The notes under the pieces: generated by a model
Databases searched by the model: none
What the model was told of the DNA's origin: nothing
What the model saw: the letters and a program-made list of their open reading frames with translations, nothing else
In this document: positions 33,516-37,533 of the stretch, piece by piece
Layout of the letters: each line of letters opens with the position of its first letter
How positions within the stretch are numbered: position 1 is the stretch's first letter
NCBI GenBank assembly: GCA_003554615.1
Contig: PWGX01000002.1
Location: 1-37,533 of the forward strand
DNA: 37,533 nt
Direction of reading: 5' to 3'
From: Syntrophomonadaceae bacterium
Lineage (GTDB): Bacteria; Bacillota; Dethiobacteria; DTU022
Program-made: the position numbers and the translations under genes

Positions 33516-34844
33516 ATGGCAGCAAATCAATCTAACAACCAGGGCAGCCTGTTTCGGCTGGTGTTCGGGTCAGTGTTTATGCTCAATGCCGCTATCTTTT
33601 TCTTCCAGGCCCTGACCAAAAACCTTTTCCAGCCCCTGCTTTTACCCCTGCGGGAAGCCTTTTTAATTGACAATACCCAGGCCGGTTTGCTGGTTACCCT
33701 GGTTTTTTTCGGTTATGCCCTGGCCCGGTTCCCCTCAGGCGTGATAGCCGATCATATTGGATGTACTAAAACTGTTCTGATTGGCAGCGCCGCAATGGCC
33801 TTTTCTTTTATTGGTGTTTCCATTTCCCCGAATTACCCGGTCCTGGCCCTGCTGACCTTTATCCTTGGAGTCAGCAGCGGCATATACGTAACGGCGGGGT
33901 ATACCCTGGCGGTGATAATCGGCTCCCGCCGGAGGGCGGCTACCGCTACGGCAGCCTTTGAATCATTCGGCATAATGGCCGGAATTATTTCGCCTCTTTT
34001 GGTAACCCTGTTTGTCCTGTTCCTGAGCTGGCAGCTGCTTTTTATTTTAACTGGACTGGTTCTGATTGTGGTAACCCTGCTTTTTTTCCGGACCCGCAAC
34101 CGTTCTATCCGATTTGAAAAGGAATACGAAGCAGAAAATGGCATTGATCCCGGCCGGCGCGATCAAAACCTGCAGCCTAAGGCAAAGCAGAAAAACAGCT
34201 TCAAAAAAATATACCGGGACCTTTCTTATTCAGCGGCAATATTTCGCGATCCCCTGATCAAGCGCTTTATAATCTGGAGCACCCTTGTCGGCGGCCTGGG
34301 GGCGCTATCCTGGACGGGAATTAATTCTTTTATTCCCACCTTCCTGGTTGAGGAAAGAGGCTACAGCTACGATGTTGCAAACAGCATGTTTATTACCGTG
34401 GCCATCGCCGGCCTGGCGGCAAAGGTTGGCATAGGCTGGCTGGCTGATCGCTTTGGCAATAACCCGGTCTTGTTTTTTAACCTTGTCTTTAGCATAGCAT
34501 CATTTATAACTCTTACTGTTGTTGACGGGTATCTGCAGATTTTGATCGTTCTGGCCTTGCTGGGAGCGATGTGTTTAAATACCAATACCTTGATCAATTC
34601 CTACGTTTTGCGCCATATGCCGCCTCGCTACCAGGGAGCCGGTTTTGGCCTCTTCAGCACCGCTTATACGGCCATCTACAGCCTCGGCCCTTATTTTACC
34701 GGCTTCCTGTCCGATTTTACCGGTTTAAGCAGGGCCATCCAGCTCAGTTCAATCGGAGCGGTCCTGGCGGCCCTGTTGATATTGACCGCCGGTCATTTTG
34801 TGCCAGGCCGACTGGTAAGTGAGATTGCTTCTGTTCACAGGTGA
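33516..34844 (+). CDS. Major facilitator superfamily transporter
   Basis: This 442-residue protein has about 12 membrane helices. The MFS loop motif appears as ARFPSGVIADHIGCTK, and its second-half repeat as AKVGIGWLADRFGNNP. A longer hydrophilic loop in the middle (around residues 190-230) is rich in charged residues. The general look is of a metabolite:proton symporter or anion porter, but the substrate is not identifiable. GGAGGCGGC precedes the ATG. The rhodanese lipoprotein gene follows after 25 bases, perhaps in the same transcript. Confidence 0.87.
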   Translation: MAANQSNNQGSLFRLVFGSVFMLNAAIFFFQALTKNLFQPLLLPLREAFLIDNTQAGLLVTLVFFGYALARFPSGVIADHIGCTKTVLIGSAAMAFSFIGVSISPNYPVLALLTFILGVSSGIYVTAGYTLAVIIGSRRRAATATAAFESFGIMAGIISPLLVTLFVLFLSWQLLFILTGLVLIVVTLLFFRTRNRSIRFEKEYEAENGIDPGRRDQNLQPKAKQKNSFKKIYRDLSYSAAIFRDPLIKRFIIWSTLVGGLGALSWTGINSFIPTFLVEERGYSYDVANSMFITVAIAGLAAKVGIGWLADRFGNNPVLFFNLVFSIASFITLTVVDGYLQILIVLALLGAMCLNTNTLINSYVLRHMPPRYQGAGFGLFSTAYTAIYSLGPYFTGFLSDFTGLSRAIQLSSIGAVLAALLILTAGHFVPGRLVSEIASVHR

Positions 34845-34869
34845 TTATTTCCGATTGGAGGTTCATCCA

Positions 34870-35274
34870 ATGAAAAAGGTTTTGCTAATATTCATGCTAA
34901 TCCTGTCCACACTTTTCTTCGTTTCATGTGCTGCTGAAACCGGGCCGGAGCCGGCAGCAGGAGGTGAATATATTAGGATTGATGCCGCTGAAGCAAAAGA
35001 AATGATGGAAAGTGAAGATGTAATTATCCTTGATGTCCGCACCGAGGAGGAATTTGAAGAACAACGCATTGAGGGCGCTATTTTGATCCCCGACTATGAA
35101 ATAGAAGAACTGGCTGAAGATAAACTGCCTGACAAAGATGCGACTATCCTGGTTTACTGCCGGACCGGCAGGCGCAGCGAACTCGCCTCAAGGGCCTTAA
35201 TTGAAATGGGCTATAAAAATGTTTATGACTTCGGAGGCATTGTGGACTGGGACTATGATATTATTGGCGAATAA
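34870..35274 (+). CDS. Rhodanese-domain lipoprotein
   Basis: This 134-residue exported protein has an N-terminal signal peptide (MKKVLLIFMLILSTLFFVSC) with a lipobox cysteine at residue 20. A single rhodanese domain then starts with RIDAAEAKEMM and has VIILDVRTEEEFEEQRIEGA. The active-site loop is YCRTGRRS, with the catalytic cysteine that accepts sulfane sulfur. It would sit on the outer face of the membrane. ATG 34870 has TTGGAGG upstream; the ORF-track start at 34819 lies inside the MFS gene. Possible roles are sulfur transfer or thiosulfate handling outside the cell. Confidence 0.9.
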   Translation: MKKVLLIFMLILSTLFFVSCAAETGPEPAAGGEYIRIDAAEAKEMMESEDVIILDVRTEEEFEEQRIEGAILIPDYEIEELAEDKLPDKDATILVYCRTGRRSELASRALIEMGYKNVYDFGGIVDWDYDIIGE

Positions 35275-35330
35275 TAATCTATAAACATTATTTGGTCATG
35301 TCCGGCTGAGACTTTAATAAAAAGAAAAAC

Positions 35331-35348
35331 AAGCATTATATTATGCTT
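35331..35348. repeat. Inverted repeat upstream of the EamA gene
   Basis: AAGCAT (35331-35336) and ATGCTT (35343-35348) flank an AT-rich six-base centre, about 30 bases before the EamA start. It may be an operator or a chance AT palindrome. Confidence 0.35.
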
Positions 35349-35379
35349 AATATCTGGAAATAGGTGTAATCAATTTACA

Positions 35380-36294
35380 ATGGGTGGATTTTTTGCTTTA
35401 CTGGCAGCGCTTTGCTTTACCCTTGACAGTATTTTAATCCGTATAGGATTAACGGAAGATAATTCCGGCAATGTATGGGAAATTCGTTTAGTCAGCATGT
35501 CGATGACCCTGGGTATGTTTGTCATGGCAGCTGCTATTGCAGAAGTTTTGGGCTTTAATATTATCCGGGAATTCAAAGCGCTTTCACTTGAAATTTTGTT
35601 AATCCTTATTTTATCCGGTATTATGGGTCCTTTGCTTGGATTGCTTCTTTTAACTACCGCGGTTGCTCAGGTAGGATCTTCCCATGCTTCAGCTCTGTGG
35701 GGAGGTTCAAATCCACTGTTTGCAACTTTGTTTGCTTATGTTGTTCTGAGCGAAACGCCTGATTTAATTGGAAAGTTATCTGTTTTGATGATTATTGCCG
35801 GGATAGTCGTTGTCGGATATCCCCGCCACGCTGGGACTATTATGCTTATGAAAAAAACAAAACTTGCAGGAGGTATTATCGCAATACTGTCCGGGCTATG
35901 TGTTGCTTTTTCACAGATTGGCAGGGGCATGGCTTTAGATATCGGAGCAACTCCAAATACAGCTTTTTTTGTATTCCAGGCTACAGCTTTAACAGTTATA
36001 GCCATGGTTTGCTTTAGAAAAACTGTAAATTTTGGCATGCTCAAGCGCATAAGCCGTAAAAGCATTTACTTTTACTTAGGAGCGGGTATATGTAATTTTG
36101 TTGGAGCTTACAGCCTTTTAATGGCGTTTACATTAATTCCGGTTTGGCATGCTGTTGCCATCAGGAATATCCAACCGGTATTTGCAGTTATATTGTCGTT
36201 TATATTATTGAAACAAATCGATATAATTAATATCCGCTTGATATTGGGCGCCTTTCTAGTAACTGCAGGAGTAGTTGTATTAAACTTATACTGA
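35380..36294 (+). CDS. EamA/DMT-family transporter
   Basis: This 304-residue transporter has ten predicted membrane helices in two EamA repeats, each beginning with a pattern like FFALLAALCFTLDSILIR and GGIIAILSGLCVAFSQIGRG. The family exports amino acids, nucleosides or other metabolites; substrate unknown. The ribosome site (AGGTG) is weak and distant. From here rightward codons are clearly more AT-rich than in the rest of the window. The SDR gene follows after 21 bases, so the two are probably one operon. Confidence 0.87.
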   Translation: MGGFFALLAALCFTLDSILIRIGLTEDNSGNVWEIRLVSMSMTLGMFVMAAAIAEVLGFNIIREFKALSLEILLILILSGIMGPLLGLLLLTTAVAQVGSSHASALWGGSNPLFATLFAYVVLSETPDLIGKLSVLMIIAGIVVVGYPRHAGTIMLMKKTKLAGGIIAILSGLCVAFSQIGRGMALDIGATPNTAFFVFQATALTVIAMVCFRKTVNFGMLKRISRKSIYFYLGAGICNFVGAYSLLMAFTLIPVWHAVAIRNIQPVFAVILSFILLKQIDIINIRLILGAFLVTAGVVVLNLY

Positions 36295-36315: not shown

Positions 36316-37089
36316 ATGGATCTTGAGGGAAAAGTTGCTTTAATCACAGGGGGAGGTAAAGGGTTGGGTAGAGAAATATCCAAATGTTTAGCCCAAAAGG
36401 GCGCTAACTTAGTGCTTGTAGCCCGAGATAAAGATCTCCTCGAAATTTTAGCAGAAGAAGTAAAATTATTTGGAGGTAAAGCTTTAGTTTGCCCAGGCGA
36501 TATATCACAAGAAATAGTGGTAGAAAAGTCAGTACAAAAAGCATTGGAATCCTTTGGTAAAATTGATATCTTAGTAAATAATGCAGGAATTATGGGACCG
36601 AATGATCCAATTAAAGATATCATTTTAAAAGATTGGGAGCGAACGATGTCGGTGAACTTAACTTCTTCTTTTCTCTACATCAAAAATGTAATTCCAATTA
36701 TGGCCAAACTTAAACGCGGCTCTATTATTAATATTTCTTCCTTATCCGGGGTCAAAGGGGTTGTGAATCGTAGCCCGTATTGTGCTTCCAAGTGGGCCAT
36801 GATCGGTATGTCTAAAGCTGTAGCCCAGGAAGTAGGGCAATATAATATAAGAGTAAATGTAGTTTGCCCCGGTGCTGTTGAGGGGGAGCGTATTAATCAG
36901 GTTATTAATAAGAGAGCAAAAGACCACAATATTTCATATGAGGAAATGATCGAAAAGACTATCGAAGACACACCTTTAAGAAGAATGGTATCTCCAGGAG
37001 AAGTAGCTTCAGTTGTAGCTTTTTTGGCCAGTGACAACTCATCTGGAATTACAGGAGAAGAGATTGTTGTTTCTGCAGGACGAAGGTAA
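36316..37089 (+). CDS. SDR-family oxidoreductase (FabG-like)
   Basis: This 257-residue NAD(P)-dependent short-chain dehydrogenase has a Rossmann dinucleotide site TGGGKGLGR (about residues 11-19), the structural NNAG motif, a catalytic serine in NISSLSG, and YCASK with the active-site Tyr and Lys. The C-terminus ITGEEIVVSAGRR is typical of FabG-like enzymes. AAAGAGGAG precedes the ATG. It may act on a 3-oxoacyl, sugar or alcohol substrate; the window gives no further clue. It shares the AT-rich composition of the EamA gene upstream. Confidence 0.92.
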   Translation: MDLEGKVALITGGGKGLGREISKCLAQKGANLVLVARDKDLLEILAEEVKLFGGKALVCPGDISQEIVVEKSVQKALESFGKIDILVNNAGIMGPNDPIKDIILKDWERTMSVNLTSSFLYIKNVIPIMAKLKRGSIINISSLSGVKGVVNRSPYCASKWAMIGMSKAVAQEVGQYNIRVNVVCPGAVEGERINQVINKRAKDHNISYEEMIEKTIEDTPLRRMVSPGEVASVVAFLASDNSSGITGEEIVVSAGRR

Positions 37090-37412: not shown

Positions 37413-37459
37413 AATAAAAGGAGTTTGAGGTAATCATATAACCCCAAACTCCTTTTATT
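37413..37459 (-). terminator. Terminator of the tRNA-Pro gene (bidirectional)
   Basis: AATAAAAGGAGTTTG (37413-37427) and CAAACTCCTTTTATT (37445-37459) form a perfect 15-base stem around a GG/CC-containing loop. On the minus strand it directly follows the CCA end of the tRNA fragment and ends in TTTTATT. The same structure would also stop transcription coming from the left. Confidence 0.85.
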
Positions 37460-37461
37460 AT

Positions 37462-37507
37462 TGGTCGGAGCGGCCGGATTTGAACCGGCGACCTCTTGGT
37501 CCCGAAC
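37462..37507 (-). tRNA. 3' fragment of tRNA-Pro(CGG), probable attachment site
   Basis: Read on the minus strand this is the 3' part of a proline tRNA: anticodon loop TTCGGGA (anticodon CGG), 3' anticodon strand CCAAG, variable loop AGGTC, T-arm GCCGG-TTCAAAT-CCGGC, acceptor strand CGCTCCG, discriminator A and encoded CCA. The 5' anticodon strand that should read CTTGG instead reads TGGAG, and nothing further upstream resembles a D-arm or the complementary acceptor CGGAGCG. The match ends at about 37507. A tRNA 3' fragment with its own terminator is what integration of a tyrosine-recombinase element leaves behind. It is not a functional tRNA as seen. Confidence 0.82.
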
Positions 37508-37533
37508 TCCATTTTTTAATGGTAACAATGAGA
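37508..37533. mobile_element. Possible start of an integrated element, truncated by the window
   Basis: Sequence to the right of the tRNA fragment no longer matches a tRNA and begins with the inverted repeat CCATT-TTTT-AATGG. If the fragment is an attachment site, this is the end of the element, with its integrase and the intact tRNA-Pro beyond the window. Only 26 bases are visible. Confidence 0.4.

Follow-up and report, generated by a model that had tools for sequence, protein, structure and literature searches.

Islands inserted in tRNA genes carry a signature composed of a regenerated tDNA and a displaced fragment, and Islander (PMC4383910) places 2083 of 3919 islands in the anticodon-centred class A, with 3′ fragments in 3760 of the 3919. 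The window analysed here, a stretch of 37,533 nucleotides from a Syntrophomonadaceae bacterium that corresponds to the entire contig C51, resembles class A islands in its 3′ tDNA fragment with a break at the anticodon loop, but it contains one junction only, the island, the integrase and the intact tDNA being off the contig. A prophage of Sporomusa ovata DSM 2662 (NZ_ASXP01000001; L190, L240–L242) offers a closer comparison. There, the intact tRNA-Pro(CGG) and a fragment are 44,103 bp apart and share an exact 50-bp repeat that starts at T32, with no identity before this base, and a 402-aa protein with a Phage_integrase domain ends about 90 bp from the fragment. The two loci have in common the tRNA-Pro(CGG) gene, the breakpoint at T32 and the location of the fragment on the chromosomal side; in contrast to the window, S. 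ovata displays the whole 44.1-kb element with its integrase and the intact tRNA, and the end sequence of this element is unrelated to the 26 bases that close the window. Four things are directly established by our analysis: the fragment, the position of its break, which side is chromosomal, and the recurrence of this breakpoint at complete elements in other genomes. The junction of the window belongs to a known and ordinary type, that of integration junctions, and very probably represents the attR of a mobile element with a tyrosine integrase (prophage, ICE or island) that entered tRNA-Pro(CGG).

A displaced 3′ half of tRNA-Pro(CGG) at the contig end

The fragment (GTTCGGGACCAAGAGGTCGCCGGTTCAAATCCGGCCGCTCCGACCA) covers bases 31–76 of tRNA-Pro(CGG), through CCA, and is identical throughout to the 3′ part of the intact gene of G011, a genome of the same genus (Table 1). 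ARAGORN found no complete tRNA in the window, in agreement with the sequence-only reading, which had described a truncated tRNA-Pro(CGG) with its 3′ half and CCA intact. As in Islander class A, the fragment reaches the 3′ end of the gene and is cut on its 5′ side; the 5′ half and the promoter are missing, and 26 unrelated bases stand in their place. While that reading let identity stop within the anticodon stem, we refine the place to the stem/loop junction, with base 32 as the first meaningful match: identity starts at T32, the first base of the anticodon loop, again as in class A, and the match at G31 is a one-base extension by chance. The hairpin 3′ of the fragment was confirmed, with a 20-bp stem, a folding energy of −26.7 kcal/mol and z = −9.4 versus shuffles, and is probably the native terminator; a simple terminator scan left it uncalled because the T run sits within the stem.

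Table 1. Features at the right end of the window, from the chromosomal flank to the contig end
Feature	Position	Strand	Observation
MFS transporter	33516–34844	+	Chromosomal flank (33516–36294); homologue beside intact tRNA-Pro(CGG) in G011
Rhodanese	34819–35274	+	Chromosomal flank; homologue beside intact tRNA-Pro(CGG) in G011; Pfam
EamA transporter	35380–36294	+	Chromosomal flank; homologue beside intact tRNA-Pro(CGG) in G009; Pfam
Short-chain dehydrogenase	36316–37089	+	Lies after EamA and before the tRNA fragment; G009 and G011 lack it at this position
Hairpin, probable native terminator	37413–37459	−	Just 3′ of the tRNA fragment; inverted repeat, fold z = −9.4
Displaced 3′ half of tRNA-Pro(CGG)	37462–37507	−	46/46 identity to intact gene of G011; meaningful boundary T32 at 37506, first anticodon-loop base
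26 bases replacing the tRNA 5′ half, visible end of a putative integrated element	37508–37533	−	No resemblance to the promoter and 5′ half conserved in four genomes of the genus; contig ends

Contig C51 stops at position 37533 and thereby limits the visible foreign side to 26 bases; this short extent counts against the attR reading, as does its location at a contig end, since assembly errors accumulate there. An assembly artefact would imply that these last 26 bases are a chimeric tail joined at a repeat and that the true tRNA is intact, and the distance of 26 bases between junction and contig end is in its favour. Moreover, 5 of the 22 tRNA matches in the window's bin are no more than about 100 bases away from a contig end, which also fits an artefact and is the reason why the contig break was not counted as evidence. 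However, the break falls exactly at the border of the anticodon loop, and the same break recurs in independent genomes and in S. ovata, whose fragment is internal to a contig of 1.38 Mb; we thus consider a chimeric tail unlikely.

The chromosomal side and the site in related genomes

Gene order in the same genus indicates which side of the junction is native. In G011, the MFS transporter and the rhodanese are followed by tRNA-Pro(CGG) on the opposite strand, and in G009 the EamA gene is followed by tRNA-Pro(CGG); the window presents MFS, rhodanese, EamA, the added dehydrogenase and then the tRNA fragment, in the same orientation as in these relatives. This synteny with G011 and G009 means that the left part of the window is native chromosome and that the missing half of the gene, together with foreign DNA, lies to the right, where the sequence-only reading had placed the element. 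The same reading had used the native terminator to recognize the chromosomal side: the side holds, owing to the synteny, although the terminator itself is weak evidence. Empty sites in related genomes, which it had proposed to look for, were found, since both G011 and G009 carry an intact tRNA-Pro(CGG) at the orthologous place, as expected for class A. In addition, the 5′ side of the empty site was seen in G002 and G005, so that a conserved promoter-like region (GCTCTATGCTATAAT) followed by the full tRNA 5′ half is present in four genomes (G002, G005, G009 and G011), and the last 26 bases of the window match neither this region nor the 5′ half.

The far flank of the site in G009 and G011 consists of a gene pair that we take to be of the acyl-CoA dehydratase activase type. 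A search of the window's own bin (G000, a MAG of 0.98 Mb, 71% complete, in 56 contigs) returned no orthologue of the first of these genes, only a weak match of 39%, and therefore the other side of the locus was simply not binned. Likewise, no intact tRNA-Pro(CGG) was found in this 71%-complete bin, which is also without the conserved right-flank gene, and the tRNA-Pro 5′ half (CGGGGCGT...CTTG) occurs there only within tRNA-Pro(GGG). None of the six integrase-family genes of the bin adjoins a tRNA-Pro sequence. The missing intact gene, together with the element and integrase that were likewise not seen, also counts against the attR reading; the sequence-only reading had named the lack of an intact tRNA-Pro(CGG) elsewhere as refuting, but in so incomplete a bin this lack is not decisive. 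Note that a loss of tRNA-Pro(CGG) in most members of the genus was considered and rejected, as G002 and G005 carry its 5′ part and the promoter-like region at contig ends; the missing gene in genus members is at least partly assembly breakage.

As a separate observation, three tyrosine-recombinase genes stand in a row in the window's own bin (G000:C26:829-3187; L164, L168 and L171), and likewise in the relative G011 (G011:C88:1629-4103; L167, L170 and L172). Both rows presumably resemble recombinase-in-trio elements.

The breakpoint in other genomes

The constancy of the boundary was judged across 71 genomes of the order by a search that used the T arm and the acceptor end as its sole anchors, because the other patterns force the T32 boundary. 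Clear truncations among the matches listed were found in G027, G037, G035, G047 (two) and G068, and each starts at base 32 or within a few chance-matching bases of it. A further match, G055:C96, resembles a degenerate tRNA more than a clean truncation. When named genomes were scanned with a pattern fixing the T32 boundary, 12 truncated cases emerged, some in genomes shared with the order-wide search, and an intact tRNA-Pro(CGG) is also present in 7 of the 12 genomes. Immediately ahead of the break, the base varies from genome to genome (G, A, T or C).

Several of these loci are more complete than the window. An intact tRNA-Pro(CGG) and a fragment cut at T32 are 1,275 bp apart in a Dethiobacter sp. 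MAG, where the interval holds an apparent Fic remnant by eye, and 1,255 bp apart in a Terriglobia MAG, whose 1.26-kb interval between tRNA and fragment contains no integrase-sized gene. Small ORFs that resemble, by eye, a pair of the DUF433/DUF5615 type were noticed in the latter interval (L197, 3848–5179). In the same order, G047 carries a tandem pair of Pro(GGG) fragments separated by 14.4 kb, each broken at the loop, and Phage_integrase genes stand on either side of one of them; the foreign side visible in G027 (about 0.9 kb) encodes a Phd/YefM-ParE toxin-antitoxin pair. A viral contig (L083) carries an intact tRNA-Pro(CGG) with a tyrosine integrase directly after it. Within the genus, a tRNA-Pro(CGG) fragment of G001 lies 21 bases away from the end of a contig, and its upstream sequence differs from that of the window. 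Finally, contigs C22 and C52 of G002 (L080 and L079) share an overlap of exactly 121 bases at tRNA-Pro(UGG) and diverge between bases 30 and 31 of this gene, which is expected in an assembly graph if one intact and one non-intact sequence enter the same 3′ half; this fork is probably a mixed occupied/empty integration site.

These comparisons bear on two further explanations. According to the first, the fragment is a relic whose 5′ half was lost by deletion or through an old element that has since been deleted, so that no element lies to the right now; it would agree with the lack of an intact tRNA-Pro(CGG) in the bin and with the shrunken elements of ~1.3 kb at this site in the Dethiobacter sp. 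and Terriglobia MAGs. Yet a random deletion would not have its endpoint precisely at base 32, and the shrunken elements are still accompanied by the intact tRNA, which makes a relic very unlikely. The second supposes an intron in the anticodon loop that splits the tRNA, the 5′ half following within one intron length. The anticodon arm, where the break is found, is also a location of bacterial group I introns, but these end in G, whereas the bases before the break vary between genomes; moreover, the complete examples possess, in addition to an intact tRNA, a further copy of the 3′ half, which introns do not produce. Rfam, applied to the window and to two more loci that carry truncated fragments, gave sub-threshold matches only and no intron, and we regard an intron as extremely improbable.

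Proposed integration route, putative element and meaning for the lineage

The attR reading is consistent with the geometry of the gene itself. The anticodon stem arms CTTGG and CCAAG form an inverted repeat around the 7-base loop TTCGGGA, an arrangement typical of the core sites of tyrosine recombinases. On this reading, the last 26 bases and the sequence beyond them would belong to an element whose integrase made the junction by exchanging strands across the 7-bp loop, probably with the two stem arms as inverted core sites. The attP of the element would bring along a tRNA copy that runs from base 32 through CCA; the chromosomal 5′ half would join this copy, by which an intact tRNA would be restored at the far end. 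At the near end, the original 3′ half and the terminator would stay behind with neither promoter nor 5′ half, an arrangement like that of the window. Since identity would be needed across the overlap, and the 3′ part would be carried to remake the gene, identity from base 32 to the end of the gene is expected, as seen.

As to the nature of the element, an exact search with the element end joined to the tRNA gave no match in viral contigs; phage and plasmid collections returned only tRNA-Pro genes or tRNA-like matches, none of which covers the 26 bases among the matches listed; and Rfam recognized no element RNA, with sub-threshold matches only. Elsewhere in the order, the last 19 bases before the junction match at 17 of 19 positions, in exact register, between G035 (Pro-GGG) and G037/L194 (Pro-CGG), a hint, at the level of sequence, that one element lineage may use two proline isoacceptors. 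The corresponding ends are L238 (G035:C241) 708–727, L199 (G037:C108) 72–91 and L194 (AGGGAACATCCCCCACGTT / AGGGAATATCTCCCACGTT). By extension, one integrase lineage of the order might move between proline isoacceptors by swapping only the attP overlap and the 3′ tRNA segment, and the element of the window could belong to it, a proposal that we consider rather improbable; the 26 visible bases are without the 19-base motif of G035 and G037. It should also be mentioned that the last 60 element bases before tRNA-Pro(CGG) fragments are identical in a Dethiobacter sp. MAG (L195, 3060–3119) and in a MAG labelled Chloroflexi (L192).

Altogether, the finding leaves existing knowledge on tRNA-targeting integrases unchanged. 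The recurrent exact break at the anticodon loop provides a simple handle for recognizing element ends in fragmented MAGs. For this lineage, the fragment marks a point of entry for mobile DNA, and an occupied tRNA-Pro site is the probable reason why the contig stops here.
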